NCBI RefSeq assembly: GCF_023555385.1
Contig: NZ_JAJSED010000001.1
Span: forward strand, 372,001-436,000
Reading direction: 5' to 3'
Source: Guyparkeria hydrothermalis
Lineage (GTDB): Bacteria > Pseudomonadota > Gammaproteobacteria > Halothiobacillales > Halothiobacillaceae
DNA length: 64,000 bases
Notes under the pieces: model-generated
What the model was told of the DNA's origin: nothing
What the model saw: only the letters and a program-made list of their open reading frames with translations
Database searches by the model: none
Shown here: piece after piece, positions 13,475-36,683 of the stretch
Layout: each line of letters opens with the position of its first letter
Position numbering within the stretch: position 1 is the first letter of the stretch
Program-made: the position numbers and the translations under genes

Positions 13475-13487
13475 GAAGGGACTCTCC

Positions 13488-14693: not shown

Positions 14694-14696
14694 GCC

Positions 14697-15956
14697 GTGT
14701 CGTTGAACCCACATCGCGTCCAATTCCGATTGCGTGAAGGCCAGGAGCGAGGGCCGTATCGCGTTCATCTGCACCGTTTTCTAATCGAACAGCTCGAGCA
14801 ACGCGGGATCGACAGTCTGGAGCTGGATCGGGAGGTGCTCACTGCCCACGTGACCGGTCTGATCGACGAATACATCGCTCGGGAGACGGTGGGCGTCAAC
14901 GTCAGTGAGAGGGAATGCCTGATCGAGGACATGATCAACGAGATCCTCGGATATGGGCCATTGGAAGCGTTGTTTCATGATCCGAGCGTGACCGACATCC
15001 TCGTCAACGGTCCCTACCGGGTGGTGGTCGAGCGCCACGGCAAACTGCAGGACACCGATATCCGGTTCGTCGACAGCCAGCACGTCATGCGGGTGTTGCA
15101 GCGCATGCTGGCGCCGACGGGGCGCCGGCTGGATGAATCATCGCCGATGGTCGATGCCCGCTTGTCCGATGGAAGCCGGTTGAACGCAATCATCTCGCCG
15201 CTTGCCCTGGACGGGCCGGATATCTCCATCCGCAAGGCCCGTCGAGAGCAGCTGTCAACCGGCGAGCTGCTGACCAATGGCGCATTCAACCCGGACATGC
15301 TCTCGTTCCTGCGCCGGGCGGTCGAGTGCCGGATGAATATCCTCGTCAGCGGCGGCACCGGGACGGGCAAGACCACGCTGTTGAACGCGCTCGGTCAGTT
15401 CATCGAGGCCGACCAACGGCTGATCACCATAGAGGACACGGCCGAGCTCCAGCTTGATCATCCGCATGTGGTCACCTTGGAGACGCGTCCGCCGAACGCC
15501 GAAGGCCAGGGGGAGGTGTCGGCGCGGGACATTGTTCGCAACGTCCTCAGGATGCGCCCGGATCGTGTCGTGGTCGGCGAGGTCCGTGGCGTGGAAGTGA
15601 TGGATCTGCTTCAGGCGATGAATACCGGCCACGACGGCTCGATGAGCACGCTGCATGCGAACAGCCCGGCGGATGCGTTGTCGCGTCTGGAAATGCTGGT
15701 GGGCTTCACCGGTTACCTGGGCGCCGAATCGACGCTGCGCGAGATGATCGCTTCCGCCCTGGACCTGCTGGTTCACGTCTCACGGACTCGTGACGGAACA
15801 CGTCGGGTGACGTCGATTCAGGAGCTGGTGGAGTGTCGTGACGGCAATTACGTGCTCAATCAGCTGTTCACCTGGGAAGCCTCCAGCCGGGAATATCGCC
15901 GTGCGGCGAACGGGGTGTTCAACCGCAAGATGTCGCAGCGCTGGGAGCACCGGTAG
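14697..15956 (+). CDS. tadA: Tad secretion ATPase TadA/CpaF
   Basis: This 419-residue hexameric secretion ATPase of the GspE/VirB11 superfamily powers Flp pilus assembly at the inner membrane. Visible motifs are Walker A GGTGTGKT (residues 219-226, Lys225), the Asp box ([11 protein letters not shown]), Walker B/His box ([26 protein letters not shown]) and the N-terminal [20 protein letters not shown] segment of CpaF proteins. GTG 14697 is the start, with AAGGGA upstream, four bases after the tadZ stop. The name tadA here is distinct from the tRNA deaminase at 55669. Confidence 0.93.
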
Positions 15957-15958
15957 CC

Positions 15959-16876
15959 GTGATGAGCGAGTGGATCATCTGGGTGATGGCTGCAGGCTGC
16001 TTGCTTGCGGGTGGGGGGCTGCTGGCCTTTGGCAAGCGGCGATCGGACACGGAGGAGTTCTTCCGGCGCGCGGGGTTTGAAGCCGTCGGTGACCCGCGTG
16101 GCGAGGGGGCACTTACAGGCCGAGCGGGTCTGCGAACGTTCGACCCCCTGCGATGGCTCGAACGGGCCGGCTGGCTATCGTCAGAGCGCGATGGCATGCG
16201 GCGTGGTTTGGCTTATGCGCCTTTCGTGTTCGTGATCGCAGCGGCCGCTCTCGGGATGTGGACGTTGTCGCTGCTGGCGGCGGCCGCGATCGTAATGGTG
16301 TTCGCGCTGGCATGGAAAAAGGCGCGGGCGCGACGCGAGAGCCTGAAGGATGAGATCCCCGGCGTGCTCGATTCCCTGATTCGGGGGTTGGAGGTCGGCC
16401 TGACGCTCGACACGGCATTTCGCATGACGGTCGACTCCAGCAGCGGTCTGATCAAGACGGTGCTCCAGCGTGTTCGGACGAGAGTGGAGCTTGGCGAAAG
16501 CCTGGGAGAAGCGTTTCGTCATGCCGCCCGCGTGCAGGGTTGCCGCGAACTGCACTTGCTGGGGTTCATCCTCGACATGCATCAGCAACACGGTGGCAAG
16601 GCCAGCGAAATGCTGGGAGGGCTGGCACAGATGATCACGGTCGATCAGCAGATCCGTCGCGATGTCCGGGCACTGACCGCCGAAACCCGCTTCACGGCAC
16701 TGGTCTTGATCATGCTGCCGCTCGGCATGGCCGTGTATCTCCTCGCCACGAATCCGGACTATCTGATGCGCATGTGGGAACACGAGTCAGGTGCCTGGGT
16801 TCTGGTGCTGGCGGCGGCGATGCAGGTCGTCGGCAGTGCCCTGATCTGGCGACTTAGCAACCCGCGTATCGCCTAG
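15959..16876 (+). CDS. tadB: Tad inner-membrane platform protein TadB
   Basis: The 305-residue GspF-family membrane protein has an N-terminal hydrophobic segment (IIWVMAAGCLLAGGGLLAFG), a second pair near residues 80-120, and the type II secretion F domain (IPGVLDSLIRGLEVGLTLDT; LGESLGEAFRHAARVQGCRE). Two C-terminal membrane helices follow. TadB and TadC form the inner-membrane platform on which the TadA ATPase acts. The start is GTG 15959 or the adjacent ATG 15962; both fall right after the tadA stop. Confidence 0.9.
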   Translation: MMSEWIIWVMAAGCLLAGGGLLAFGKRRSDTEEFFRRAGFEAVGDPRGEGALTGRAGLRTFDPLRWLERAGWLSSERDGMRRGLAYAPFVFVIAAAALGMWTLSLLAAAAIVMVFALAWKKARARRESLKDEIPGVLDSLIRGLEVGLTLDTAFRMTVDSSSGLIKTVLQRVRTRVELGESLGEAFRHAARVQGCRELHLLGFILDMHQQHGGKASEMLGGLAQMITVDQQIRRDVRALTAETRFTALVLIMLPLGMAVYLLATNPDYLMRMWEHESGAWVLVLAAAMQVVGSALIWRLSNPRIA

Positions 16877-16893
16877 GTCGGGAGGAGAGGGTC

Positions 16894-17775
16894 ATGTTCT
16901 GGTTGGGGTTTGGGTTGTTGGTCACGGGGATCGGGATGGCCCTGCTGTTTGCCGGTCCGCGACAGCGGGACGAGCGCGAGATCCGACAGCGATTCGGTAT
17001 CGGCAAGGAGGATGCCAAGGCGCCTACGGAAAAGGTGGCTCCTGTCGCTCGACAGGGTCGGCTCCCGCTGAGGGACCCGGAATTCATCAGAGCGGTGGTC
17101 CGGTTGGGTTGGGCCCGATCGGGGGGCATCTTGTTTCCACAAGTCGCGTGGGCAGCTGCGATCGCGGCCGGGGTATTCGTTGGTCTGGTGTGGGCGCTGT
17201 CGCAAGGGGCGTCGGCGTACCAGATGGCAGTCGCGTGCCTAGCCGGGGGAGCCGTCGGTCTGATTGGATTCAAGCGGCTGGTTATGAGGCGTGCAGAGCG
17301 GCGCATGGCGCGGATCAAGGCGGAGCTTCCTCTGACGATCCGGCTTGTCAGGTTGCTGCTCAACAGCGGTTTAGCATACGAGATGGCCTTCCGGCGAGTA
17401 GCGGAAGAAGGCACGCATGTGGTGCCGGAACTTTCCCGCGAGCTGGACGCGGTACTTCGCCGGACAGGGACGGGTATGCCGCTTTCCCAGTCACTCAGCT
17501 TGATGCAGCAACGGCTTGATGACGTGGACGTGAGCCGTCTGGTGGGGGTTCTCGTCCAGTTGATATCGATGGGCGGCAGCATCGACCGATCACTCATCAA
17601 CCTTGCTGAGGATCTTGAAAAACGACGGGAAAGCACGCTGAGAGAACGGGTCAACAAATCCTCGGGAAAGATGAGCCTGATCATGATGCTGTTCCTGTTC
17701 CCGGCGCTTCTGATACTGCTCGGCGGGCCGGCAATCATCAGCCTGACGGAGGGTCTCCTTGACGTTGCATCGTAA
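16894..17775 (+). CDS. tadC: Tad inner-membrane platform protein TadC
   Basis: The 293-residue partner of TadB is also GspF-like. An N-terminal membrane segment, a middle pair of helices (WAAAIAAGVFVGLVWALSQG region) and the F domain (ELPLTIRLVRLLLNSGLAYE; GMPLSQSLSLMQQRLDDVDV) are followed by C-terminal helices ending in FPALLILLGGPAIISLTEG. Start ATG 16894 has a strong GGAGGAGAGG site. The 3' end overlaps the next start by 17 bp. Confidence 0.9.
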   Translation: MFWLGFGLLVTGIGMALLFAGPRQRDEREIRQRFGIGKEDAKAPTEKVAPVARQGRLPLRDPEFIRAVVRLGWARSGGILFPQVAWAAAIAAGVFVGLVWALSQGASAYQMAVACLAGGAVGLIGFKRLVMRRAERRMARIKAELPLTIRLVRLLLNSGLAYEMAFRRVAEEGTHVVPELSRELDAVLRRTGTGMPLSQSLSLMQQRLDDVDVSRLVGVLVQLISMGGSIDRSLINLAEDLEKRRESTLRERVNKSSGKMSLIMMLFLFPALLILLGGPAIISLTEGLLDVAS

Positions 17776-18457
17776 AACCAGCGTGTTCTTACTCGCGCTA
17801 TCTCTGGGGACGGTCGCGGGCTGTTCCGGCGTTCCCGGCAAGCCCATGGACTTGTCGGCCTGGGTTCAGCCGGACTGCAAGGGCGAGGATCCGGACGGCG
17901 AACTCGGCATCCGCTATGACTCCATCGAGGGGTTGATGGATAGCGGCCGGCACCGTGCCGCGCTCACCCATATCCAACTGCTGGAGAACGACCACGGCAC
18001 CACCCAACGTTCGCAGCTGTGGAAGGCAAAGGCGCTTCGGCAGATCGGACGGCTTGACGAGGCGCAACGAGCCTACGGCGAGTTGACCAACGGGTGTTTT
18101 GCCTCGGTGGCCTATCACGGTCTGGGCCGGACGCTTGGCAAGAAGGGTGACTGGACGGCGGCCCGTCAGGCACTGGACCAGGCCCGGCAGCTCAACCCCA
18201 TCTCGCCCGCCATACACAACGATCTTGGCTATGCCCGGTTGAAGACAGGGGCATACGAGCCGGCTGTTGAAAGCTTCCGGACGGCGCTCGAGCTTGACGC
18301 GGGACGGACGCGCGCGGCGAACAACCTGGTACTGGCGCTGCTGTTGATGGGCGAAAAGCAACAAGCCGAAAAACTTCTGGAACCCTTCGATATCCCGGCG
18401 GACCGCTGGGTGAAGCTCCAGTCCCAGGCCGACAGCTGGGTCGTTGACGAGACATAA
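17759..18457 (+). CDS. tadD: TadD-like TPR lipoprotein
   Basis: The 232-residue predicted lipoprotein starts at TTG 17759 behind GGAGGG, inside the tadC 3' end. The signal peptide ends in the lipobox LGTVAGC (Cys22), and the mature part is made of tetratricopeptide repeats (AYHGLGRTLGKKGDWTAARQ; AIHNDLGYARLKTGAYEPAV; AANNLVLALLLMGEKQQAEK). TadD is thought to help the secretin reach or assemble in the outer membrane, as pilotins do. Length and position within the locus agree with this assignment. Confidence 0.85.
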   Translation: MTLHRKTSVFLLALSLGTVAGCSGVPGKPMDLSAWVQPDCKGEDPDGELGIRYDSIEGLMDSGRHRAALTHIQLLENDHGTTQRSQLWKAKALRQIGRLDEAQRAYGELTNGCFASVAYHGLGRTLGKKGDWTAARQALDQARQLNPISPAIHNDLGYARLKTGAYEPAVESFRTALELDAGRTRAANNLVLALLLMGEKQQAEKLLEPFDIPADRWVKLQSQADSWVVDET

Positions 18458-18545
18458 CTCGTTGTCATGCGGCGGCCCTGCCGGGGCTCGGGTCTTGATA
18501 GGGGTCGTGCCTGGAATCAAACGCAAGTGAGGGAGTGACTTGGCA

Positions 18546-18815
18546 ATGAAAGGATCTGTTATCCCGGCGGTCGCCATGGTCTTGATGATCGCGGTAGGCG
18601 GTAATCCGGCCATGTCGGCCGAGCAGCCGAAGTCGACCGCAACGGAAACATGGCTCGATCTGCAGCGGGGAGGAACGGCGTCGACGCCCGTGCACAAGCG
18701 CGTTGAAGGCGAAATCAGCCAGCGTTCCTATCGCCGACTGCTCAAGAGCTTCGAGCGCGAGATTCCCACCCGTTTCTTCCCCTCCGAGGGCCCGAACCGT
18801 GGTTCGCGGAACTGA
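18546..18815 (+). CDS. small exported DUF3613-like protein of the tad locus
   Basis: The 89-residue protein has a cleavable signal peptide (MKGSVIPAVAMVLMIAVGGN, cleavage near AMSA) and a short mature part containing ATETWLDLQRGG and a basic/aromatic end (SQRSYRRLLKSFEREIP). This pattern matches from memory the small DUF3613 proteins often found in tad loci; their role is unknown. ATG 18546 is chosen with GGGAG ten bases upstream; TTG 18540 is an alternative. The 3' end overlaps the GTG of the next gene. Confidence 0.65.
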   Translation: MKGSVIPAVAMVLMIAVGGNPAMSAEQPKSTATETWLDLQRGGTASTPVHKRVEGEISQRSYRRLLKSFEREIPTRFFPSEGPNRGSRN

Positions 18816-20622
18816 CATAGCCGCCGGTTGGCTCGATAACGATGCCGGAGCGATACGTAACGCTCGGTTGGCGAGACGCGCGTTTGCCGGCCCCGTGGCC
18901 GAGCGCGGGTCGGCCATGTTTTCGGTGCTGGTGATCGTGCTGATGCTCGTCGCCAGTGCACTGGCCGTGGATATCGGGCGCCTGGTATTCGAAAAGCGCA
19001 ATCTGCAGAAGGCAGCCGACATCGCGGCACTTTCCGCGGTTAATGCGAGCGGATTCTGCGGGCCATCCGGGTCAGCAGTGGATGACCGACTGCGGCAGGT
19101 TGCCCGGGATGCCCTGGTGGAGAACGGTTTCGATCCGGACAAAGAGGGAAACCGCTGGGACTTGCTCGTGGGCGAATCCACCGTTGCCGGTGGCCGGCGG
19201 GAATTCCTGACTACCGGCGGGATCGCGGATCCCCGCACGGATTCGGTTCTGGTCTCGGCCGAAAAAACGGTGTCGCGCAGCCTTTTTCTCGGCGGCTGGC
19301 TCGGGGAAAATCGCCAGAAGATCGAGGCACTTGGCGCGGCTCGGAATCAGACCGCGGCCTCGTATGCCGTGGGCAGCCGGCTGTTGGCGCTGGACAGCTC
19401 GAATAGTGCCTTGCTCGACTCCCTGTTGAGCGGTCTGGTGGGCAGTGATGTGAGCCTCGGTGTCGTCGGCTTCGATGGACTCCTTAACGCGGAAGTGACG
19501 CTGCTCGATTTATGGGATGCAGCGCCACTAGCGGGGATCGATCTTGCGTCCGGGTCACCGACGGCATTGCTCGCGGCTGACATGAGCGTCGGTCAATTCC
19601 TGGGATTGCTCGCACACGCTCTCAAGAGCGGCGGGCAGCTGGATGCCCGTCTTGCCATCGAGACACTCGAAACGCAGATGGTCGCCACGAACCGGACGAT
19701 TCGCTTGGCCGAGGTGCTGGGCATGCCGAAGGACGAGCAGCCTCTCGATACCGAGGTTGGCGTCGCCGACCTGCTCATGGCCGGCTTGCTGGCCGGTGTT
19801 CGCGACAATACCGTCCAGATTCCCTTGGAACTGACACTAGCGCAACGGGACGACTCCGCCGTCGAGGGTGTTTCGATCGATACGGGTCGTGGGGGAGCGA
19901 GCGTTGAGCTCGAGCTGATAGAACCCCCTCAGGTGGCGGTTGGTCCGCCAGGCAAGCGGGCTGACGGTAGCTGGCGGACGATTGCTCGTACGGCTCAGGC
20001 GGATCTGACCTTTTCCCTCCCGCTTCATGTTGACGTGCCCGGCGTGCCCCAGCCGCTGAGCGTGGTGCTGACGCTCGACATGCAACTGGCTCGAGGGCAG
20101 GGGGCGCTCGCATCGCTGACATGCCCGACCTGGGTGGATCCGGTGGCCTACGCGAACATCGCCGTGAAACCCGGTCTTGCGCTGGTTGATATCGCGCTCG
20201 ATTTGGATCTCGCCGGGAGTCGCATCATGGCGGTCGATATCCCTATGGATTTGCAGGACTCGGCGACCATGCAGGAGTTTGGCGTTCCCCCGGAGGGAGA
20301 GGCCTGGATGGTCAGCCCCGGACCGGCTGGAGGGGGTACCCGCATCGGAAATGCGGTAGCCAACGAGTTGCGGGTGTTATCTGACGAGCAGTTCGTGAGC
20401 AGCAGTCTGGACCTGGCCGGGGTCTCCCTGGTGACGCCGCTCGACAGTCTCTCGACATCGGTCAGCGGCGCTGTGGTCAACGAGCTGGCACCGGTGTTAA
20501 TTGGGTTGGGCAACACCGTGATCGATCCCACTCTGAGGGCGCTGGGGTTGCAGGTGGCTGGCGCCACGATTCCCCTCGATTCGCTAACCCTGGGAGCCGG
20601 TCAGGCCGCACTGGTCTACTGA
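18799..20622 (+). CDS. tadG: TadG-like pilus assembly protein
   Basis: The 607-residue protein is anchored by a TadE/G-like N-terminal helix (AERGSAMFSVLVIVLMLVAS), followed by the conserved DIGRLVFEKRNLQKAADIAA segment. A long periplasmic region has several repeated hydrophobic-glycine blocks (DSLLSGLVGSDVSLGVVGFD and similar). TadG-type proteins are minor Tad components needed for a functional pilus. No von Willebrand A domain is visible, unlike some TadG proteins. GTG 18799 (with GAGGG upstream) is chosen; ATG 18919 would leave only the helix onward. It is the last recognised tad gene. Confidence 0.8.
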   Translation: MVRGTDIAAGWLDNDAGAIRNARLARRAFAGPVAERGSAMFSVLVIVLMLVASALAVDIGRLVFEKRNLQKAADIAALSAVNASGFCGPSGSAVDDRLRQVARDALVENGFDPDKEGNRWDLLVGESTVAGGRREFLTTGGIADPRTDSVLVSAEKTVSRSLFLGGWLGENRQKIEALGAARNQTAASYAVGSRLLALDSSNSALLDSLLSGLVGSDVSLGVVGFDGLLNAEVTLLDLWDAAPLAGIDLASGSPTALLAADMSVGQFLGLLAHALKSGGQLDARLAIETLETQMVATNRTIRLAEVLGMPKDEQPLDTEVGVADLLMAGLLAGVRDNTVQIPLELTLAQRDDSAVEGVSIDTGRGGASVELELIEPPQVAVGPPGKRADGSWRTIARTAQADLTFSLPLHVDVPGVPQPLSVVLTLDMQLARGQGALASLTCPTWVDPVAYANIAVKPGLALVDIALDLDLAGSRIMAVDIPMDLQDSATMQEFGVPPEGEAWMVSPGPAGGGTRIGNAVANELRVLSDEQFVSSSLDLAGVSLVTPLDSLSTSVSGAVVNELAPVLIGLGNTVIDPTLRALGLQVAGATIPLDSLTLGAGQAALVY

Positions 20623-20948
20623 GGGCCCTTTCTGGCTCTGTGCCAACCAGTCCCGGATCCGCATGGCCATGGATAAAACACCAGGTTCTGACAGTGGCCT
20701 TCGGACCCTGTTCGCCCGTCGAGTGACCGCCTGAAACCGGTGAAGTACTACTCCTTTTTGACTAAAGGATGGGGTGCCCGACGTTGGTACGATGCATTTG
20801 CCTTAGGCCATTCGCTTGGCCGTAGGGAAATCAGTCCCTGGTGGCGGGGTTGCCCCATCATCACGCTTCTGCTCGCTGATTTCCTCGATCCAGGGCTTAT
20901 GGGAAGTGCCCACATACCCTCTGACAGGGCGTCAAAACAGGGATCTCG
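20623..20948. other. intergenic region after tadG
   Basis: The 326-bp stretch contains no convincing gene. TTGACT on the plus strand at about 20758 is a -35-like hexamer without a matching -10 at normal spacing. Neither a clear terminator for the tad operon nor an RNA gene was recognised. Confidence 0.4.
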
Positions 20949-21641
20949 GTGATGGAGAGAAAGGAGCTCGGCTCCCGGCTTGCCGGATACGTTCACGGAA
21001 TGGAAGTATTGGGCGGCGTGTTTGGTCGGATTGTCCGTTCCGAGGCGCATGACGTTCGGGGGGTCCTCAATGGCATCTCCATGGCCGCCTATAACTCGCG
21101 AGTCAGGGTAACGGCCGACGTGTCCCCGGATGTGCCGATCAATTCACCGGACGGCGAATCGATTCGCGCAATCGAAAACAAGTTGCAGCGAATTATCGAT
21201 TCGACACGGGCTCTCGACCAACGATTGCAGATTCTTCTCGATCTCGTCAGTGCCAAGCCCGCGGATATTTTTTCGGCATTGAAAGTGTACGAGTCCCTTG
21301 TCCCTGACCTGATGGACGCCGGTTTCATCGAGATACGCCTGCCCGAGAAGGTCTCGCCGGGGCTGTCGCGCCTGTCTGGCATCCATGCACTCGCTTTGCT
21401 CACGACGTGGACCCACCGGCTTGAAACCCTGCATGCCGATCAGGACGACTTTCATGGTGGAGTCGTGGGCGGGGTGATCGAACTGTGCGACGGAGGCGAT
21501 CGCCAATGCCGGACGCTGAAGCTCGTGCCGGCGCTTGCCGGCGGTTGTAACGAGCCTGTCTTCGTCTCCAGCGCAGTGGACGCCTTCGCCGCGCTTTCCG
21601 AGACGCGTCTGCCGGAAGTGCATATCCCGTTGGAGCCGTGA
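20949..21641 (+). CDS. hypothetical protein with a histidine-kinase-like H-box
   Basis: This 230-residue cytosolic protein belongs to no family I can name with confidence. Residues about 34-52 (AHDVRGVLNGISMAAYNSR) match the H-box pattern H-[DE]-x-R-x-x-L-x-x-I of histidine-kinase dimerisation domains. A second long helix follows (SIRAIENKLQRIIDSTRALD). The C-terminal part is the size of a kinase ATPase domain, but the N-box Asn and glycine boxes are missing. That is the organisation of ChpT-like phosphotransferases. It lies directly after tadG and before the mobile element, so it may relay phosphate within the upstream signalling system. Function is inferred. Start is GTG 20949 or ATG 20952. 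Confidence 0.45.
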   Translation: MMERKELGSRLAGYVHGMEVLGGVFGRIVRSEAHDVRGVLNGISMAAYNSRVRVTADVSPDVPINSPDGESIRAIENKLQRIIDSTRALDQRLQILLDLVSAKPADIFSALKVYESLVPDLMDAGFIEIRLPEKVSPGLSRLSGIHALALLTTWTHRLETLHADQDDFHGGVVGGVIELCDGGDRQCRTLKLVPALAGGCNEPVFVSSAVDAFAALSETRLPEVHIPLEP

Positions 21642-21752
21642 ATTCCTTGGGCCTCGGGCAAAGCGCCGAGAAGGTCAGGGCAGGGATGAGCGAGCAATTC
21701 CAGGAAGGTGGGATAAGCGGCCGGTGAGGCCGCAACGTCCGCTCGAGATGTC

Positions 21753-21808
21753 TGGTGCCGAGGGTCGGACTCGAACCGACACGGTATCTCTACCGGCGGA
21801 TTTTGAAT
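21753..21808 (-). repeat. 3' fragment of tRNA-Leu marking the left attachment end
   Basis: The minus strand reads from the anticodon loop through variable arm, T-arm and acceptor to the encoded CCA, but no D-arm or 5' acceptor strand precedes it. The T-arm and acceptor (33 bp) are identical to the intact gene at 36597-36683. The variable arm differs: CGGTA-GAGA-TACCG here, against GGGT-AAA-ACCC in the intact gene. Both can form a stem of the same total length, so this fragment probably comes from a once-functional gene. Confidence 0.8.
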
Positions 21809-22038: not shown

Positions 22039-22857
22039 TCACCCGGAGAATCGGTATAGGAGTAGGCCGTAGGGGTCTCTTCTCACCTTTTTCGCTTGCT
22101 CAATGTGGTACTCCGCGTCCTTCACACCGCTGTCGGCATAAGAGGTAGAGACCTTCTGAGGGAATAGAACTTCGGCGATCTCGCGTGATGTTGCACCTTG
22201 CAAGTGTCCGTCGAGTGCGCGGAGCATCACGGGGAGGCTTGTCTCCCTCGGGCCTTTGGCGCGACGTCTACCTCTCTCGCTTTTGATGATTTTTTTGATT
22301 TCTTCGGTTTGGCGATCAAGTGGCAGGGAAGGGTCCACTGAAATCAAGAGTCTTCCGGGAGGGATTGGCACAGCGTGCTCGTGATTTGCCAGGACCAAGT
22401 TGCCGTGCACATGCCGAGTCAGGTCGAGAGCTCCCTCATCGGCTCGATATGGCATGCGTGAATCTAGCAAGGGCGTAGGGCAATTGTCGGACCGGGGGTG
22501 AGGGACCCCACGTACCTTCCACTTATGCTCTAAGTGGTGGAGTAACGAAGGGCCGATAGCATCACCCGTTCTTCTTTCCCATTCCTCAATTGTCTCTTCA
22601 GGCTCGCATGGCGGGTCGCAGAAGCGCAGGCACGCTCGTTCGTCCAGAGACACGGGATTGAGAGAGAGCTTTGAGTTGGGTTTGCCATCGCTGTTGTGAC
22701 TCGGCAGGGAGTCGAAGTGCTCAACATCCCTCAAGTAATCAGGGTTGCGTCTGAGAAATGCCCACGCCCAACAGGAAACATCACAATCTTCAAAGCGTCC
22801 TGGGTAGCGACGCTCATCAATCCAGTCGGGAGTCCATGTGCAATGCGAGGTATGCAT
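22039..22857 (-). CDS. DUF6499-DUF2285-type regulator
   Basis: The 272-residue cytosolic protein has an N-terminal part with SCWAWAFLRRNPDYLRDV, the signature of the DUF6499 'transcriptional regulator-like' domain. Its C-terminal part (LPVMLRALDGHLQGATSREI and later RRDPYGLLLYRF) matches DUF2285, a compact helix-turn-helix-like domain. DUF2285 proteins include FseA, which activates excision of symbiosis integrative elements in Mesorhizobium. Here both parts lie in one reading frame. A role in controlling excision or element gene expression is therefore plausible, but inferred. The ribosome site before ATG 22857 is weak. It is transcribed in the same direction as the restriction cluster, 225 bp downstream of it. 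Confidence 0.6.
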   Translation of the reverse strand: MHTSHCTWTPDWIDERRYPGRFEDCDVSCWAWAFLRRNPDYLRDVEHFDSLPSHNSDGKPNSKLSLNPVSLDERACLRFCDPPCEPEETIEEWERRTGDAIGPSLLHHLEHKWKVRGVPHPRSDNCPTPLLDSRMPYRADEGALDLTRHVHGNLVLANHEHAVPIPPGRLLISVDPSLPLDRQTEEIKKIIKSERGRRRAKGPRETSLPVMLRALDGHLQGATSREIAEVLFPQKVSTSYADSGVKDAEYHIEQAKKVRRDPYGLLLYRFSG

Positions 22858-23081: not shown

Positions 23082-24806
23082 CTATAGGAAGCATTCGGAG
23101 GCGAGGAGTTGGTTGACTTTTGCTTCGAACAGTTTGGTCGAATTAGGCAAAAACGGGATTCCGCCGATCTCGACTTGATCAATGCTCTGATGAAAACGAT
23201 GTCCTGAGTAGTCGATTTCGTTCGGATGAGGAAATAACACCGCAGCGCCAATAACGACGCCCCGTTGGTATTCCTGTGTAATCGGGTGGGGGATGGCGAT
23301 AGCATCACGATAGCGATGCATCGTGTTGATGTCCTCTTCCATGGGGCCAGCCCCCCCATGTTTCCGCATGTAATCCTTGTCAAATTGAATTCGATACTTC
23401 GCGTCGAAAATGTAGAAGCGGTCGTTGCTGGCGAACTGGATGACGTTGTCCGGCTTTTGGGAAGTCGTCGGTAACTTGTTGAACATGCGGTTGTAAACCA
23501 CGTGCAGCTCTTTGCCGGTGGGCCTGTGTATAAACCTCATCGCCGAGGGTTTGCCCTTCTTCAAAGTTACCGTCAGCTTCATCCGCTTGAACTGGACCAC
23601 CGTTTGCTCTGCAAGCTCGAAATGCTCTTTGAGCAGGCTGATAGTCTTTAAGAAACACCAGTACTCGTAGAGAAGTGCTGTGTCCTTAACCCCGATTGGC
23701 ACAACTTCCCCGGAGAACGACAAGCCCCCGTTCACAAGCCGGGAAAGCTTGTCAAACCGTGCGTATAGGGGGTGTTTGTGGAATACCAGTGAATCGGGCT
23801 TTTGAAGCGTGTTTTTGGACACTTGAGCGAGAAAGGGCAATCGAAGTACTGCCTCGACTTGACGTTGCATTTCTTTCAGCTCGTCCCGGATAGAATCAAG
23901 AAACCGGCTTTCGGAGTCTTGGTCGGCGTCTTCGTCTTCTGAACGTTGTGTTCGTGCAAGTACCCTAATCTTTCGGTGTGTCTCTACCAGTATCCCCTTG
24001 AAATAGCGGTTTTCTGGGGTGTTGAATGTCGTCCATGAAATCGTCTCTTGGATGCGGCGGGGGAGCGGTCTTTTCAACCTTGGGTGCAGTGGCCCATTGT
24101 TCGCACGACGCATCGCTCGATTGATCGTATGGCGGGATACCCGGCGAGCACGCTCGGTCTCGGTCGTTGCGGTCTTTTTTACCAGTGTTGAATGCGGGTT
24201 CTTGGCTATGCCTCGGGCGAGCTTCATGGACTCATCGAAGTACTGCTGCACTAGCGCGAACCATTCGATCAGGGTAGGGCTGCGGCTTCGAGAGGGGGCG
24301 GCCATGCTATAGGTCTTGGCGTTTGCGGTCATGGCCAAGTTGCGCAGCATTCCGCTAACTTCTGTGCGCATTGCCAAGTAGTCGGTCTTGTAGTCGGCTT
24401 TTCGCGAGAACACCTCGAGGGAGATTCGTGCGTGGCTGGCTGGTCCGTCTATTGAGATGTCGGCGAAACCCACGTTGTTCCCGAAGTTGAGGAAGTGATG
24501 TTCGGCTCTGTCTCTGACGCGCCGAGGATCAGACCCAGGCGGCAATGAGACGCTCACAGCTTCATCATCTTTCTCAATGTATATGTCGTATCCGACCGCT
24601 TCGTAGAAAAGGGGCTCCATCGCCTCACCTGGGGCGATAGGCTGCAGACGTCCGCTCTCAGCGTTTATTCGCGTCATCTGTTTAACGCCTGTCGCTCCTA
24701 TCGATGAGTTCGGAGTCGTCGATAGAAAGGGAGCAAGCTCGGGAAGCTTTCCAACTATTTCCAGTTTCCAGCCGGTTCCCTCAGCTTGAAAAAGCGTTGG
24801 CATCAC
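23082..24806 (-). CDS. DUF2357 restriction-like nuclease (McrC/LlaJI-like partner)
   Basis: The 574-residue protein has the DUF2357 organisation: an N-terminal beta-rich domain, a central helical region (LLYEYWCFLKTISLLKEHFE) and a C-terminal PD-(D/E)xK-type nuclease with IFDAKYRIQFD (Asp468 and Lys470). DUF2357 proteins pair with McrB-like AAA+ proteins in type IV-like or LlaJI-like restriction systems, where they supply the cleavage subunit. Its start ATG 24806 overlaps the stop of the AAA+ gene by 4 bp (ATGA), showing tight coupling. The region is visibly richer in A+T than the chromosome outside the element. Cleavage specificity cannot be read from sequence. Confidence 0.75.
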   Translation of the reverse strand: MMPTLFQAEGTGWKLEIVGKLPELAPFLSTTPNSSIGATGVKQMTRINAESGRLQPIAPGEAMEPLFYEAVGYDIYIEKDDEAVSVSLPPGSDPRRVRDRAEHHFLNFGNNVGFADISIDGPASHARISLEVFSRKADYKTDYLAMRTEVSGMLRNLAMTANAKTYSMAAPSRSRSPTLIEWFALVQQYFDESMKLARGIAKNPHSTLVKKTATTETERARRVSRHTINRAMRRANNGPLHPRLKRPLPRRIQETISWTTFNTPENRYFKGILVETHRKIRVLARTQRSEDEDADQDSESRFLDSIRDELKEMQRQVEAVLRLPFLAQVSKNTLQKPDSLVFHKHPLYARFDKLSRLVNGGLSFSGEVVPIGVKDTALLYEYWCFLKTISLLKEHFELAEQTVVQFKRMKLTVTLKKGKPSAMRFIHRPTGKELHVVYNRMFNKLPTTSQKPDNVIQFASNDRFYIFDAKYRIQFDKDYMRKHGGAGPMEEDINTMHRYRDAIAIPHPITQEYQRGVVIGAAVLFPHPNEIDYSGHRFHQSIDQVEIGGIPFLPNSTKLFEAKVNQLLASECFL

Positions 24807-26287
24807 ACACCCCAGAAACGAGTTACACCGTCTAAGTCCAGCAGCGAGCTCATGCGGGAGACCTTTTCTCGGCTCCTTTCGAGTGCCCCCGCAAATTCCG
24901 CGTCAATGCCGTCGACTCCTAGACTCGGCTCCGATCGGGCGTCGAGCCAGTCGGAGAGTTGGTTCAAGGCGAACTCTAGGGCATCGCTATTACCGGATAC
25001 TTTTGGCAGGACCTTCTGCAGAAGGCAGAAGTCGAGCGCCGCGCTGCCAGAGAGCACGTCCGAGAGGCCGAATTCCCGCCAGAAGTGAAGGTAGAGGAGA
25101 ATAGAGTCGCGCGTTCGGTAGCCAAACTTGATGCCTGTCGGAGCGAGAATGTCCTGTATTTCGCTCAGCCATGCGGCGACATGCTCGAACAAGTCTTGGT
25201 TCTTGGATTGGGCTTCCATCACACTGATCGCATTGTCGGGATCAATTACCGCTTGAGCTAAGCCCTCAAAGTTGGCGTTAGTGTCACTTTCGCCGATGGC
25301 AAATGCCGTTAGATCAGGGTCGTCGAACTCGATAGTGAAAGCTCGATCGAGCACTTTTGGGCTGAACGAATGAGTGGTCTCGTCCATGTTGGCTGTGCCG
25401 ACAACTCGCAAATTGTGCGGAAGCTCAACGCCGCGAAGTTCCTCGCATAGGGAAGAGTGTGCCTCGCTGGGCTCAGATGGCAGGTCTATCGGTAAAGGAT
25501 CTGAGCCGATTTGGCCGCTTTTACGTTCACGAGATTCGGCCACGGAGAGGAAGTCGCTGAAGTAGTACTCGACTGGCGCTAGGTTCATTTCGTCGAGCAG
25601 TGCGATCGAGAGTGAGTCCGGGTGACGTTTGGCGTCAAGTATCGAATCGACAATCTTGCCTTTGATAAAGGTATCGTTCGCCAATGCGGGGACGTAACCG
25701 AACAGATCGCTGTTATCGGCCCACTGTGGCTGAACGGGGATTGACTGGAAGTTGGAGCTTGTGAATTTTGCAAATTTGCGAGGGAGGAGGCTTTTGCCGG
25801 TTCCGGAGATGCCGGAAAGAATTACAAGTGGGCTCACCGTCATCGCGAGGAAGAAGTTGGCCAGCTCGGCTGGAGAAATCAGGTAGCCTTCCGCCTCCAT
25901 CGATTTCTGAATGCTGAAAATTGCTTCGCTAAGGTTTGCAGTAGGTGCTCCCGCTTGTGAGGCGGAGGGCGATTCGGAGAAAGGGGCAGAGGTCTTGTTC
26001 TCCGGGACTAGTTGCTCGCCAAAACGGTATTCCGTCGTGGTGCTTCCAGCACGGGGGCCGGATTGAGCTCGAGTCTTGGCGCCGGTCTCTTGCAGGTACC
26101 CACGCTTAACTAGACGTCGCGGTACCGGGGGCTTCCTCGTCGAGGGAATTTCGAAGTCGCCAGGGATGAATTGCCATATAGCGTCAGTGGGGAAGCGGTG
26201 ATCTGGGCCATGCATTTCTAGCATCGCTTCAAGAGCTTGGATGGCTAGGTCGTCTATTTGCTCTTTATCTGTAATCGAGGCCGCCAT
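24803..26287 (-). CDS. McrB-like AAA+ NTPase
   Basis: The 494-residue protein has an N-terminal winged-helix-like region (residues about 1-95, PRRLVKRGYLQETG) possibly involved in DNA reading, then an AAA+ domain. Walker A is GISGTGKS (159-166), followed by the McrB-type QPQWADNSDLFGYVP stretch. Walker B is LLDEMNLAPVEYYFSDFL and the sensor region is GTANMDETTHSFSPKVLDRAF. McrB-family motors use GTP or ATP to translocate DNA and activate a partner nuclease, here the DUF2357 protein encoded in overlap downstream. ATG 26287 has an excellent GGAGGAG site and starts 20 bp after the methyltransferase stop, so all three genes form one operon. Confidence 0.8.
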   Translation of the reverse strand: MAASITDKEQIDDLAIQALEAMLEMHGPDHRFPTDAIWQFIPGDFEIPSTRKPPVPRRLVKRGYLQETGAKTRAQSGPRAGSTTTEYRFGEQLVPENKTSAPFSESPSASQAGAPTANLSEAIFSIQKSMEAEGYLISPAELANFFLAMTVSPLVILSGISGTGKSLLPRKFAKFTSSNFQSIPVQPQWADNSDLFGYVPALANDTFIKGKIVDSILDAKRHPDSLSIALLDEMNLAPVEYYFSDFLSVAESRERKSGQIGSDPLPIDLPSEPSEAHSSLCEELRGVELPHNLRVVGTANMDETTHSFSPKVLDRAFTIEFDDPDLTAFAIGESDTNANFEGLAQAVIDPDNAISVMEAQSKNQDLFEHVAAWLSEIQDILAPTGIKFGYRTRDSILLYLHFWREFGLSDVLSGSAALDFCLLQKVLPKVSGNSDALEFALNQLSDWLDARSEPSLGVDGIDAEFAGALERSREKVSRMSSLLDLDGVTRFWGV

Positions 26288-26307
26288 GGCTCCTCCAGGT
26301 CTTACGG

Positions 26308-27675
26308 TTACGCGGTAGTTTTCGTGCTTGAGTAGTGCGCGTCGAGCTGTGATGCGAGATGCTTAGCGATGGCTTCAGATAGGGTGGGGGGGACCGCCTC
26401 CCCAATCATATCCATGCCAACGCCGATGCGGGTCGTGTTGTTGCTGTCAGTCATTGAAGTGACGAATCGGAAATCGTCATCGAATGATTGCAAACGAGCG
26501 GCTTCGCGCATGGTGATGCCCCGCATTTCTTCGGGATGCGAAAAGCGTCCGGAGCCGAGAAAGTTGGCGTTGGCCGTGATTGTCAGTGCCGGAGCGTCCC
26601 ATGCCAACCGTGAATAGGCGCTCCAGTAATAGTCACGATAGAAAGCGGGATTGATTAAGCCCTCGGCTTCCAGTCGGGTGCGGGCTTTCTCGTGCGACAT
26701 CGCCTCGGCGCGAGCCTTTTTCGAGATGGCCCGTTCATACTTGGCTCGCATACGCTTGCTCTCGGTATCCCAAGTTTGCCCTGGGCGCATTTCCTTGATG
26801 ATGTTGAGCACCTGCTGTTTGTAACTTCTCGTGAGATGGTTGTGCGGGAATCTCGCGGAGGTGCGCATAGATCGTGCAAAATCGCTCGGCACCTCCCCGT
26901 ACAAGTCCTTTGGTCCGCCGCCAAGACTATCTTTGCCCAATGGGGGCGGAGGTAAGTCGCTAATGGCGTCTTTAACGGTAACCCATGGTTTTAAACCCGA
27001 ACTCATGAGTCTCTGATCTGTTGGGTTGCCATGGGTTTTCGGTGGCATCGAGACGGCGCCGACGGAGCTTGCGATAAAGATTGCACGTTCACGAAGCTGA
27101 GGTACGCCGTAGTCGGCGCAGTTCACAACCGCGACCTCTACTGTGTAGCCAAGATCCTTCTCAAGCATTTGAATCACGAGTTCCGAGAGCTTGCCAAGGC
27201 GACCTTGGAAGCCGTGATTGAGCATCTGTGGGACGTTCTCAATTACCAGAAACTTGGGCCGCAAGGCTTCCGCGACCTCAAGAAAACGTAGCACCAAGTC
27301 ATTGCGAGGATCGTCTGCGAGTTTGCTGTAGCCGGAAAATTTGACGATCTTTCCTTGTTTTCGGTGCTCATTCCGCCTCAGTTGCGAGAACCCTTGACAG
27401 GGTGGGCCACCAATCATCACGTCGAGATCGCCTTTCCTTACACCTCGGTCGGCCAACACAGAGTGGATGGTATCCACGTCGAGCAAACGAATGTCTTCGC
27501 GAATAGTTGATGGGGGGACATCGTCATTCGCGTGATTGAACTCGAACGTGCGCAACGCCTCGCTTTTCACGTCGTTGCCCAGTGCCACGTTAAAACGACC
27601 GGAACGGGTGAATCCTCGGGAGGTGCCGCCACAGCCGCAGAAAAATTCGGCCAAAGAATATTTTTTAGATGTCAT
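26308..27675 (-). CDS. dcm: DNA cytosine-5 methyltransferase
   Basis: The 455-residue C5-cytosine methyltransferase has motif I FFCGCGGTSRGF, motif IV GGPPCQGFS with catalytic Cys93, motif VI IENVP, motif VIII QLRERAIFIA, and motifs IX-X near the C-terminus (RLQSFDDDFRF; IGVGMDMIGEAVPP). The long segment between motifs VIII and IX contains the target recognition region. It heads an operon with the McrB-like and DUF2357 genes and is divergent from vsr, so it most likely protects host DNA from that nuclease pair. ATG 27675 gives a standard N-terminus (MTSKKYSLAEFFCGCGG) but lacks a clear ribosome site. TTG 27747 would add 24 residues. Confidence 0.88.
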   Translation of the reverse strand: MTSKKYSLAEFFCGCGGTSRGFTRSGRFNVALGNDVKSEALRTFEFNHANDDVPPSTIREDIRLLDVDTIHSVLADRGVRKGDLDVMIGGPPCQGFSQLRRNEHRKQGKIVKFSGYSKLADDPRNDLVLRFLEVAEALRPKFLVIENVPQMLNHGFQGRLGKLSELVIQMLEKDLGYTVEVAVVNCADYGVPQLRERAIFIASSVGAVSMPPKTHGNPTDQRLMSSGLKPWVTVKDAISDLPPPPLGKDSLGGGPKDLYGEVPSDFARSMRTSARFPHNHLTRSYKQQVLNIIKEMRPGQTWDTESKRMRAKYERAISKKARAEAMSHEKARTRLEAEGLINPAFYRDYYWSAYSRLAWDAPALTITANANFLGSGRFSHPEEMRGITMREAARLQSFDDDFRFVTSMTDSNNTTRIGVGMDMIGEAVPPTLSEAIAKHLASQLDAHYSSTKTTA

Positions 27676-28042
27676 TAGAGTGATGAATTGGTGTATTAGT
27701 TTTTGTGCGTGTGTTCTCGACGCAGGTCGGGCTTCGGGGCTCGGCAACCTGCCTGCAAGTTGGACGGGCTACGCGGCCTTGGTGTGTGATCCGTTAAATT
27801 CCCGAGAGCGAGAGGCGAATGTGTAGAACGCTAAATTGCGAGATCGAATAAAGCTTTCGACTCGCACGGCTGGCTTTCCGAAGCCTGCCTAGTCTGAGAG
27901 CCCTTCCCCAGACCCCACGACCGGATGGGTCGGAGAAGTGATCGTGGCGAAGGCAGAAATGACTTGCTCCCTGCGCATGTAAGCTGCCATTGTCGGATGA
28001 AATCGATTCCGATCCAAACGCGAACTGAGCGGGGTTGGCGCC
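27676..28042. other. divergent intergenic region between methyltransferase and vsr genes
   Basis: The 367-bp gap separates the leftward methyltransferase operon from the rightward vsr gene and must contain both promoters. The part nearest the methyltransferase is A+T-rich (ATTTTTTAGATGTCATTAGA region). No protein or RNA gene was recognised. Confidence 0.4.
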
Positions 28043-28501
28043 GTGGCAGATATTGTCGACGCACGCACTCGGTCGAGGATGATGTCCTGTGTGAAGAGCA
28101 GGAACACTAAGCCGGAGATGATATTACGGCGTTGGCTTCATGCGCGTGGCTTTCGGTACCGACTGCATGTAAGGAAACTTCCTGGGTGCCCAGATCTCGT
28201 GCTGCCTAGGTACCGTGCCGTCATACTGATTCATGGATGCTTCTGGCATCGTCATGAGGGGTGCCGGTTCGCCACTACACCCCAGACACGCTCGGAGTAC
28301 TGGGCCAACAAGTTTCAAAGAAACGTCAACCGGGATAGAGACAATCATCGAGCTCTGTTAGAGGCTGGCTGGAGAGTGGCAACAGTTTGGGAGTGCGCTT
28401 TGCGGCATGGCAGCAGGGAGGAGCTCTTGGCGGCGCTTGCTGGTTGGCTGAAGGGTGAGCAGCGAGAGTTCAGTTCTGATGTTGTAGTTGCGCCGATGTG
28501 A
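28043..28501 (+). CDS. vsr: very short patch repair endonuclease Vsr
   Basis: The 152-residue Vsr-family endonuclease nicks next to T:G mismatches that arise when 5-methylcytosine deaminates, which keeps C5 methylation from being mutagenic. Residues corresponding to the E. coli active site are present: Glu25 (NTKPE), Asp51 (CPDLVLPRYRAV), His64 and His69 (IHGCFWHRHEGC); the WECAL segment lies near the C-terminus. The start is GTG 28043 (MADIVDARTRSRMMSCV). It is divergent from the cytosine methyltransferase, the partner expected from its function. Confidence 0.9.
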   Translation: MADIVDARTRSRMMSCVKSRNTKPEMILRRWLHARGFRYRLHVRKLPGCPDLVLPRYRAVILIHGCFWHRHEGCRFATTPQTRSEYWANKFQRNVNRDRDNHRALLEAGWRVATVWECALRHGSREELLAALAGWLKGEQREFSSDVVVAPM

Positions 28502-32472: not shown

Positions 32473-34083
32473 TCATGCGAGCATCTCGCCATCCTTTCCA
32501 CGCATCTCTTGTGCAACTCGCGCAACTCGCGCAACGCCATGTCCGGGTGCGGTTCCTGGGCGCGCTTTCCCTTGCGAAACACGCGCAGGTCGTGGAGGTA
32601 GATTCGTGCGCGCATCCTCCTCCTGCTCGCTGTGCGCGCTGTTGCGCATCGGCGTGACGCCCCTTGAGGTGTCGTCTTGCGCGTTATGCGCGTCTTGCGC
32701 GGGACGAGAATACTCTTTGGTTGTGCCGAAACTTTCTTTTTGGCGCTCCCGTTGCTCGAGCAGACCGTCGGCGAGCAGCTCCTCGAGGACCGCGGTCAGG
32801 TCCTTCGCCTTGATCCGTTTTGCGAATATCTCGCGCTGAATCATGGTTCGCGTGACCCATCTCCCAGCTGCGATACCGTTGAGTATCTTTTGTTTCTGTT
32901 CTCGACGCTTCTCCGATTCGATCCGCTGGTTCATGTCTTGCCCGAATATGAAGCCAACGGACTCTCGGTGAAACCGCGACCAAGCTAGAGCGGCCCGCAT
33001 GTGCGCTGCCGAGATTACGTCGGTCTGGTCGGTCATGGCGAGCAGGCCGGCTTGCCGTAGGGTGATTGGTGCGCGACGTTCGAGCAGTGCAGTAACAATT
33101 GCCGTTGAACCATCACGCCGTCGCAGATCAGGGTATGCCTCGCGGTACATTTCCCGCGCCTCTTTGGAGAGCTTGATTGCGGTGGCGCACTTGGTGCGCG
33201 GGTAGTCACCAAGGGCGAACTTGATCACGTCCCTGGTTTGAACTGCTAGCCGGTGTACTGCTTCGTCTGGCGTCGGCTCAGGGAAGGGGACTAGGCAAGT
33301 GCGCTCGGCGAAGATCATCAGGAAACGATTCATCAGGCCGTTGAATGCTGCGGTGGCATCCATTCGAGCCCGCAATTCGTGAGGAGTGATCGCCCCATGG
33401 ATGGCCACATGAGGTTCGGTAGCCCAGATGCTGGCTGACTTGGTGGCCGGTTGGATTGATCCCCCGTCGAACAAGTCCCGGATGGTCGGGCTAAGGGTGT
33501 TGCCGTCACGCTTGCCTTGCTCAAGCAATTTGGCGAACTCTGCTTCGATGATCAGAAGGCGCTTGTCATTAATCGGCGCATGCTCTGTTTTCCCGAGAGT
33601 GAAGCCGTCATGAACCTGTGCCGCGAGGCCCTCGCCAGTCGACAGCCCGCCGGAGTGAATCCGGCCGGCGAACAGCGTAGGCGTGACGACGGCGCCCTCT
33701 TCATCGGTGCGCTGCGTCGGGTTGCCGTCCATCATTTCTCCGACGGCGTAACGAATGCGCTTGACCAGCGCCCAGCTCTCGCCCTTGGCCGCAACCATGG
33801 AACGGCCGACGTGCAGGCCGTTGATGAGCAAAGGGTGGGTCTGGTCGCCCACGGAAATAAAGTGGTGGCGGCCCACAGCAGCGGAAAGCCACGTTAGAAA
33901 GGCCAACGCCACGCTTGCCCGGTTTGGTTCCCGCCCCATTGTTGCCGCCCTTGCTACGTCGCCCACGAGGCCGTGGAACATGGCGGGGTCTGGCTTTGGA
34001 GGTGCGACGGTGTAGTCGCGTTCGTCTAGCTCTGACTCGAGCGGATTGGAGGTCAGGGCTTCGGCTTGCTCTGCGATGCTCAT
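32473..34083 (-). CDS. DUF3987-like primase-helicase of the element
   Basis: The 536-residue protein resembles the DUF3987/YfjI helicase-like family used by satellites and integrative elements. It has an N-terminal LTSNPLESELDERD region, then LAFLTWLSAAVGRHHFISVG, a LLIIEAEFAKLLEQGKRDGN segment in the Walker B position, HVAIHGAITPHELRARM, and GLMNRFLMIFAERT with an arginine-finger-like pattern. The expected P-loop is replaced by NGLHVGRSMVAAKGESWALV, which is not a standard GxxxxGK[ST]. The last 60 residues are low-complexity (Ala, Arg, Pro). ATG 34083 overlaps the upstream stop by 4 bp (ATGA). It is the last gene of a four-gene leftward replication block. Confidence 0.65.
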   Translation of the reverse strand: MSIAEQAEALTSNPLESELDERDYTVAPPKPDPAMFHGLVGDVARAATMGREPNRASVALAFLTWLSAAVGRHHFISVGDQTHPLLINGLHVGRSMVAAKGESWALVKRIRYAVGEMMDGNPTQRTDEEGAVVTPTLFAGRIHSGGLSTGEGLAAQVHDGFTLGKTEHAPINDKRLLIIEAEFAKLLEQGKRDGNTLSPTIRDLFDGGSIQPATKSASIWATEPHVAIHGAITPHELRARMDATAAFNGLMNRFLMIFAERTCLVPFPEPTPDEAVHRLAVQTRDVIKFALGDYPRTKCATAIKLSKEAREMYREAYPDLRRRDGSTAIVTALLERRAPITLRQAGLLAMTDQTDVISAAHMRAALAWSRFHRESVGFIFGQDMNQRIESEKRREQKQKILNGIAAGRWVTRTMIQREIFAKRIKAKDLTAVLEELLADGLLEQRERQKESFGTTKEYSRPAQDAHNAQDDTSRGVTPMRNSAHSEQEEDARTNLPPRPARVSQGKARPGTAPGHGVARVARVAQEMRGKDGEMLA

Positions 34084-34595
34084 GCGAGAAAGCCTCCCGC
34101 TTGGATCATGTTCCGGATTCGTTTTTCCGCATCGATAAGCGCTTCCAGGTCTGCGTCGTCGAGCCATCCGTCGCGTCGGATCTGGGCTGCGGCTAGAGAG
34201 ACGATGATCACGTCCATGGCCAGAGATTGGAGTGCCTGCGTCGCAGAGAATCTCGGTCCCTTGTGTGGCGACCGATTACCGTCGGTGCGAGAGTGTCGCA
34301 GGTGCTCGGGAATCAGTTCGATTGGCTCGAGCCCGAGTCCTCGAAGGACCTCGCTGTTACTGCAGCCGGCTCTGCAGTGCATCAGTACGATGCCTTCTTG
34401 CGTTTCGGAGACAAGCAGGCTGGGGTGCTTATCCTCGTGTTGTGGGTTGGCGCAACGGCAGACCATCGCCCGGGCTAGGCCCGGCGCCGGCTTAGTCTCT
34501 CGAGATGCGTCAACGCGGACGAGGATTTCGTCGAAAGGTGAGCTATGATGACCATGTGTGTGGCGGCCCTGCTCTTCGGAGTGGGGTTTTGTCAT
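34080..34595 (-). CDS. CHC2-type zinc-finger (primase-like) protein
   Basis: The 171-residue protein carries a CHC2-like zinc finger at residues 46-78. Ligand candidates are Cys46/Cys48 and His53 in CRCANPQHEDKHPSL, and Cys74 and Cys78 in LMHCRAGCSNSEVL. This is the DNA-reading finger of DnaG-type primases. The TOPRIM catalytic part is absent, so it probably acts with the DUF3987 protein encoded in ATGA overlap downstream, which splits primase-helicase functions between two proteins. The C-terminal half is helical. A His-rich N-terminus (GRHTHGHH) is notable. Confidence 0.7.
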   Translation of the reverse strand: MTKPHSEEQGRHTHGHHSSPFDEILVRVDASRETKPAPGLARAMVCRCANPQHEDKHPSLLVSETQEGIVLMHCRAGCSNSEVLRGLGLEPIELIPEHLRHSRTDGNRSPHKGPRFSATQALQSLAMDVIIVSLAAAQIRRDGWLDDADLEALIDAEKRIRNMIQAGGFLA

Positions 34596-35411: not shown

Positions 35412-36470
35412 TCAGGTTTTGCGTTCGTCACCGAAGACACTCGCGTTCATGCGCTCGAGCACACCTACCGTGTGCTGTTCGCTCAGGTGGCTGTATCGGG
35501 CGACCATGGCGAGGGTCTTGTGCCCGAGCACGGCGGCGATCTCCGATGTGGTCGCGCCGTGCATTGCCAAGTAACTCGCGGCGGTGTGCCGCAGATCGTG
35601 GAACACGAAGTCTTCGATCCCGGCATCTTCCAGAGCCTTCCCCCAGGCGCCTCGAATGTCCATCGGTTTGCGCGAATCCTTGTAGCTCGGGAACAGCAGA
35701 TCGGTGTCGATCCGAGGCGCTTGGCGTAGGTCCTTGAGTCGGTCGAGCGCCTCACCGATCAGCGGGACGGCCCGGCGCTCGCCGTTCTTGGTGTCGCCCA
35801 AAACGATCACGCGGCGGGATAGGTCTACGTTGTGCCAGGTCAGGTTCATAACCTCTCCATGCCGCATGCCAGTCGAGAGAGCCAGCGTGACGATGGTGTG
35901 AAGGTAGGGGTTGGGGCTCGCGGCGGTCTGCTCGAGTAGGGCGGTACGCTCCCGGTCGTCAAGGAACCGGACACGACCACGCGGCTCGGGGCGCTTGCGG
36001 ACCTTGCGGACGGGGTTGTCCTCAAGAAGGTGCCACTCGCTCGAGGCGACGGTGCAGACGTGAGAGAGGGCGGCGAGGTAACGGTTGACGGTGCTACCGC
36101 TCCGATCCTTGGCCAGCTCGTCGCGCTTCTCGGCGATCAGGGCAGGGCGTAGACGGTCGAGGGTGGTCTTGCCGATCTCCCGCTTCCACCAGGCGAGCTG
36201 GCGAACCTGGTCGCGCTGGGTGCTTGGCTTCTTGTCCGGCAGGACCGTCCCGAGGTAACGGTCGATCAGGGCGTCGACGGTATTGCGTCGGCGTTCCTGG
36301 TGCTCGAAGTAGGTTCCGTCAAGAATCTGCTTTTCGACCTTGGCCGCCCAGGCATGGGCGTCGGTCTTGCGCGGGAAGGTCTTGTTGACGACGGGGTAGC
36401 CGGTGATCCGCACGCGGGCCTTGTAGCGAACCTGCCCGGCCTTCGTCTTGAGCTTGGTCACGGTAGCCAT
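35412..36470 (-). CDS. int: tyrosine recombinase, integrase of the element
   Basis: The 352-residue phage-type integrase has an N-terminal arm-binding-like segment (KAGQVRYKARVRITGYPVVN), a core-binding SAM-like domain (TVDALIDRYLGTVLPDKKPS) and a full catalytic set: Arg203 (STGMRHGE), Lys228 (DTKNGERR), His291 and Arg294 (HDLRHT), His317 (LGHKT) and the nucleophile Tyr326 (ARYSHLS). Its start is 127 bp from the 3' end of tRNA-Leu, the usual place for an integrase whose target is that tRNA. All catalytic residues are present, so excision may still be possible. Confidence 0.93.
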   Translation of the reverse strand: MATVTKLKTKAGQVRYKARVRITGYPVVNKTFPRKTDAHAWAAKVEKQILDGTYFEHQERRRNTVDALIDRYLGTVLPDKKPSTQRDQVRQLAWWKREIGKTTLDRLRPALIAEKRDELAKDRSGSTVNRYLAALSHVCTVASSEWHLLEDNPVRKVRKRPEPRGRVRFLDDRERTALLEQTAASPNPYLHTIVTLALSTGMRHGEVMNLTWHNVDLSRRVIVLGDTKNGERRAVPLIGEALDRLKDLRQAPRIDTDLLFPSYKDSRKPMDIRGAWGKALEDAGIEDFVFHDLRHTAASYLAMHGATTSEIAAVLGHKTLAMVARYSHLSEQHTVGVLERMNASVFGDERKT

Positions 36471-36555: not shown

Positions 36556-36596
36556 TAGGTTGCATCAGGCGGCATCGCCTAACTGCTTGTTTTTAC

Positions 36597-36683
36597 TGGT
36601 GCCGAGGGTCGGACTCGAACCGACACGGGTTTTACCCCGGCGGATTTTGAATCCGCTGCGTCTACCAATTCCGCCACCCCGGC
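36597..36683 (-). tRNA. tRNA-Leu(CAA)
   Basis: The 87-nt gene includes an encoded CCA. Acceptor strands are GCCGGGG and CCTCGGC (one G-U pair), the D-arm is GCG..CGC, the anticodon stem GCGGA/TCCGC encloses TTCAAAA with anticodon CAA, the long variable arm is GGGT-AAA-ACCC, and the T-arm GTCGG-TTCGAGT-CCGAC is intact. It reads UUG codons. Its 3' half is shared with the fragment at 21753-21808, so the present gene is probably a host 5' half joined to an element-borne 3' half. Confidence 0.95.

Follow-up and report, generated by a model that had tools for sequence, protein, structure and literature searches.

A well-preserved methylase, McrB-like motor, DUF2357 nuclease and Vsr cassette in Guyparkeria hydrothermalis: a probable rare form of a known anti-phage system type

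Background

Two described systems are close to the locus considered here. PcaI (PcaRCI) of Pectobacterium carotovorum is described as restricting unmethylated plasmids and phage, with relief by its own methylase in vivo; its polarity was tested by transformation, conjugation and phage plating, and its site is CCNGG (PMC8989522). According to the same description, it consists of one Dcm-like C5 methylase, an AAA+ McrB-like protein and a DUF2357/PD-(D/E)xK protein, and lies on a possibly mobile region. LlaJI of Lactococcus also restricts unmethylated DNA and needs both of its subunits, an McrB-like specificity subunit and a PD-(D/E)xK subunit, which are combined with cognate C5 methylation (PMC1459862). 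Its site is asymmetric and is served by two methylases, and its reader is a B3 domain according to a review (PMC12707154). In contrast, McrBC, a Type IV system, has no cognate methylase. The McrB-like GTPases also include a branch that PMC11090510 defines by an NxD motif, after which E or D usually stands; many of its members are associated with methylases, and none was characterised as of 2024.

In this work, we describe a cassette of four genes in a 64-kb stretch of the G. hydrothermalis genome (hereafter, the window), and compare it with these systems and with its relatives in other genomes. Its layout is a rare one within a type of anti-phage system that is already known, and the example here is well preserved. 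Among the titles and abstracts searched, no set consisting of a methylase, an McrB-like motor, a DUF2357 nuclease and Vsr is described.

Layout of the cassette

Table 1. Features of the cassette and of the island that carries it (window coordinates unless residues are given)
Feature	Position	Strand	Remarks
Nuclease gene	23082..24806	-	DUF2357 / PD-(D/E)xK, McrC-like
Catalytic residues PD...DAK	nuclease P452-D453 ... D468-A469-K470		invariant in 8 aligned sequences
Motor gene	24803..26287	-	McrB-like AAA+
Putative DNA-reading domain	25961..26287 (motor residues 1-109)	-	seen only in the motor's own family
Walker A, GISGTGKS	motor residues 159-166		invariant in 8 aligned sequences
Walker B, LLDEMN	motor residues 230-235		invariant in 8 aligned sequences
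NxD motif, NMDE	motor N300-M-D302-E		invariant in 8 aligned sequences
C5-cytosine methylase gene (Dcm type)	listed ORF 26308..27747, likely 26308..27675	-	PF00145
vsr	28043..28501	+	divergent from operon; PF03852, TIGR00632
att-like repeat, island left end (partial tRNA-Leu end)	21752..21808	.	57-nt direct repeat, 89%
att-like repeat, island right end, within tRNA-Leu gene	36596..36652	.	57-nt direct repeat, 89%
tRNA-Leu gene	36597-36683		its end copied by the 57-nt repeat
Island tyrosine integrase	35412..36470	-	PF00589 E 5e-31; PHROG 1 integrase 1e-69

The open reading frames give a leftward operon in the order methylase, motor, nuclease, with a spacing of 20 bp between the first two and an overlap of 4 bp between the last two; the three-gene operon with a divergent Vsr that an earlier note had read from the sequence agrees with these coordinates. 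The gene identities it had proposed also hold: the methylase matches PF00145 (E 4.5e-49), the nuclease PF09823 DUF2357 (E 9e-44) and PF04411 PDDEXK_7 (E 2e-38), and Vsr matches PF03852 (E 4e-28) in addition to TIGR00632. The motor is identified through a profile of its family, with which a PDB search brings up E. coli McrB at E 8e-6; its one Pfam match, AAA_5, scores 20.8 bits against a cut-off of 22. None of the four frames is interrupted, and the alignments show the active-site motifs intact. The methylase probably begins at the ATG at 27675 (455 aa) rather than at the TTG at 27747, because the methylases of the relatives begin there. A tRNA-Pro call by ARAGORN (23423-23510, + strand, antisense within the nuclease gene) is probably a false positive, since the nuclease reading frame is conserved there.

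The cassette sits on a mobile island of about 14.9 kb, as judged from the 57-nt repeat of the tRNA-Leu end and the adjacent integrase. The G+C content is 57.4% in the island and 54.3% in the cassette, against 62.9% in the remaining window. In a genome of the same genus (G005), the homologue of window 2868-4248 adjoins the 3' side of tRNA-Leu, and no island copy separates the two. Beside tRNA-Leu, this genome also lacks the sequence that runs from about 4249 up to the left end of the island (window 4249-21751), so a second variable block, which carries a TadE/G-like pilus protein (18703-20622), adjoins the island. Two island proteins (32473-34595, - strand) match phage primase/helicase families, which suggests a satellite-like replication module. 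Directly after the operon (22039-22857, - strand) lies a protein with RovC_DNA-bd and Trans_reg_dom domains, a possible regulator of the island.

Motor, nuclease and methylase

By its motifs, the motor is an McrB-like AAA+ protein with a shortened NxD motif. Its NMDE has NxD in place of NxxD and fits the published description of NxD followed by E or D, and NxDE is also present in those distant relatives where a pattern search located the motif. On present evidence, the cassette is not a CoCoNuT. No coiled-coil fusion is recognised in the motor by inspection, its family has only about 110-135 residues ahead of the AAA core, and no two-component genes are recognised beside the cassette.

The N-terminal domain of the motor is seen in its own family only, matching one of 72,556 plasmids and, among 398 genomes, none except its own. 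Its profile finds nothing convincing in the PDB. At the sequence level, the putative reader of the cassette matches no known domain: there is no sequence match to B3, the reader domain of LlaJI, and the N-terminal part has no Pfam match to the modified-cytosine readers ADAM/DUF3578, SRA, EVE or YTH. An AF2 model of residues 1-109 built from 7 rows is poor for fold searching (pLDDT 60.5); the best Foldseek match has E 5.4, and a second structure search gives Z <=4.0. The weak impression of a winged-helix-like fold in this model comes with no meaningful fold match, and we do not count it as evidence.

The nuclease consists of an N-terminal beta-rich region, DUF2357 and a PD-(D/E)xK domain. With its low-confidence model (pLDDT 61.9), the top Foldseek match is E. 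coli McrC, at a non-significant E of 0.063; in the second structure search, McrC chains of McrBC take ranks 1-4 with Z 7.7-8.8, against <=5.8 for unrelated rows. These matches support, but do not prove, an McrC-like fold.

The PPCQ and ENV motifs of the methylase are kept in all 7 aligned rows long enough to include them; the row of the relative L010 ends before. It is the only PF00145 match in its genome. With a single methylase, the site may well be palindromic or nearly so, like PcaI's CCNGG. Counts of palindromes of 4-6 bases in the window give nothing decisive for the target; the lowest is TGCA, with 180 seen and 237 expected (z -3.7, among many tests).

Relatives and their co-divergence

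A scan of genome contigs gives 7 loci, and a plasmid search gives one full-length relative, from Caballeronia, with 70% motor identity. The order methylase-motor-nuclease is found in all seven loci that reach the methylase (L008-L014, of which L010 is partial); L015 is outside this count, as its contig starts inside the motor. Since it recurs in 7/7 testable relatives, the three-gene order is not due to chance, and the methylase is built into the operon, as the earlier note had held. An adjacent Vsr is absent in L009, L011 and L014.

Identity to the window is 56-78% for the methylase, 47-69% for the motor and 41-63% for the nuclease. Over 7 taxa, methylase and motor protein distances correlate with r 0.90, a value reached in 2 of 5040 permutations; without the outgroup L014, r is 0.89, and only the identity among the 720 permutations is as high. 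Methylase and nuclease distances correlate with r 0.97 (7 taxa; 1 of 5040 permutations as high). The correlated protein distances therefore indicate that the three operon genes diverged together.

Close relatives are scarce. Among 399 genomes of one family, there are none past the two already known; in the class of the window, 6 of 369 genomes match at E 1e-20 and, in a relatives search of 57 genomes, 5 match the motor at E 0.001, the window's own genome included in both counts. The motor is absent at the latter threshold from all ten other genomes of the genus that were searched.

In a wider survey that takes in distant motor-nuclease relatives, 23 loci gave no match within the set to either of two methylase models, an absence by two models that is not proof. 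For one of them, L066, a Vsr gene and a C5 methylase gene are found next to an MvaI/BcnI-type endonuclease gene at a distance of a few kb. In four related motor-nuclease pairs (L026, L059, L062 and L023), an N6/N4 amino methylase replaces the C5 methylase; the engine has thus swapped methylase chemistry. L050, another relative that contains the motor, bears the annotation of an EVE-domain protein and is encoded downstream of an N-6 methylase; it may be a modified-base reader with a methylase. Of the candidate pair PDC-M26 in PADLOC, the motor matches PDC-M26A (E 2e-49) and the nuclease PDC-M26B (9e-10); both matches are partial, the models being longer, and the longer Klebsiella-type pairs show no methylase by the models used. 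The name PDC-M26 was not found in the literature searched.

Comparison with known systems

The cassette carries the gene content of the PcaI/LlaJI kind: a co-encoded methylase, a motor with Walker A, Walker B and Nx(x)D motifs, and a protein with DUF2357 and PD-(D/E)xK domains. PcaI is the closest tested system, followed by LlaJI, a likeness that rests on the descriptions in the papers and on a Pfam RE_LlaJI match just below the cut-off (23.0 of 23.6 bits). The gene kinds are the same as in PcaI, and the possibly mobile location is shared; however, the available text of the PcaI paper mentions Vsr 0 times. The LlaJI type to which the earlier note had likened the locus is right as to the McrBC-derived restriction-modification kind, but PcaI is the nearer example. 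Because it has one methylase only, the cassette is by its genes not LlaJI proper, from whose description it also differs in carrying Vsr. Nor is it Type IV by gene content, since its operon includes a methylase.

Association of Vsr with C5 methylases

The alignment of Vsr with E. coli Vsr (1cw0; E 8e-33) covers almost the full protein and shows that the PD and HGCFWH motifs are retained; it is the only Vsr match in its genome. Among testable sets, Vsr is adjacent in 7 of 10 that have a C5 methylase (window included) and in none of the 6 amino-methylase sets (Fisher p 0.011; 0.07 with 0/4); L026, L059 and L062 on the amino side are closely related. In this count, L028-L030 are dropped as repeats, being at the same places as L010, L011 and the window, and L010 and L015 are outside because of contig ends. 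L061 was fetched via the Vsr search and is also in the motor list; without it, the C5 figure is 6/9. The six amino-methylase sets were assigned by model (four), by Pfam PF01555 (one) and by annotation (one). With some sets being close relatives, the pattern, in which Vsr joins C5 but not amino-methylase sets, is suggestive; it fits repair of deaminated 5-methylcytosine.

Proposed mechanism and alternative readings

Very probably, the cassette is a restriction-modification system in which an McrBC-derived engine cuts unmethylated sites. The polarity would follow that of PcaI and LlaJI, which restrict unmethylated DNA. We infer the site, its protection, translocation, cleavage and repair in the cassette as follows. 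The C5-methylase would mark and protect a site in the host genome. Where this site lacks the mark, the N-terminal domain of the motor would recognise it; the NTPase ring would then hydrolyse NTP and translocate DNA to the McrC-like PD-DxK nuclease, so that phage or plasmid DNA entering the cell unmethylated would be cut. At the marked sites, Vsr would repair T:G mismatches that arise from 5-methylcytosine deamination.

Several lines favour the restriction of unmethylated DNA put forward in the earlier note: the gene content and its conserved order, the intact active sites, the joint divergence of the methylase with the motor, and the experimentally tested parallels, PcaI and LlaJI. If, instead, motor and nuclease acted as a Type IV system on modified DNA, the adjacent methylase would be an orphan marker with another use. 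Motor and nuclease are indeed homologues of McrB and McrC, distant relatives such as the Klebsiella-type pairs L027 and L058 have no methylase found adjacent (L024 begins at the first base of its record, with its upstream side outside view), and L050 carries its EVE annotation. We nevertheless regard this reading as improbable: the operon starts with the methylase in 7/7 loci of the close family, methylase and motor co-diverge, the polarity of PcaI and LlaJI is the opposite one, and a cutter of 5-methylcytosine beside a strong 5-methylcytosine methylase would turn on its own host if the marked site were not exempt. Still less probable is that the cassette belongs to an island remnant which has been silenced or has decayed and no longer restricts. 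The number of promoter-like matches does not exceed chance (1 against an expected 2.4), but the four frames are open and the catalytic residues are invariant at 41-78% identity to the relatives.

As to Vsr, it is unlikely that the gene is an unrelated island passenger outside the system. Its placement varies: it is divergent in the window, yet upstream of the methylase and codirectional in L008, L012 and L013, whose Vsr proteins are 37% (L008) and 50-53% (L012 and L013) identical to the window's. Three complete C5 sets have no adjacent Vsr; for L009, Vsr is on a different contig of the genome (G392), and the genomes of L011 and L014 (G394 and G397), as well as that of L015 (G398), have none found, while that of L010 (G393) has two Vsr genes, neither placeable beside the cassette. 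Against the passenger reading, vsr follows the nuclease gene in three more distant sets, those of Rhizobium rhizogenes (L057), Azospirillum (L060) and Deinococcus (L061). It has thus been added in different arrangements, and the survey shows it only with C5 methylases. The pairing of the only Vsr with the only PF00145 methylase of the genome, and the adjacency to C5 but not amino methylases among relatives, strengthen the earlier suggestion that Vsr would limit C-to-T mutation at the methylated sites; it probably repairs mutations arising from the methylation mark. More speculatively, and with little expectation that it is correct, Vsr may serve as a second addiction arm that helps to break the chromosome if the methylase is lost or diluted, in a system with a reader of new fold and an NxD motor. 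Vsr-aided chromosome breakage on methylase loss has been proposed for VsrA and ScmA of Caulobacter, as described in PMC12907096. If this were true, an NxD-motor restriction system would hold its host via two nucleases.

Conclusion

The cassette is a compact and intact McrBC-type restriction-modification set with the NxD motif, and it has homologues in named bacteria, some of them plasmid-borne. It would allow a test of whether NxD motors drive DNA restriction, and the sets with C5 and with amino methylases offer a natural comparison for why Vsr joins restriction systems.
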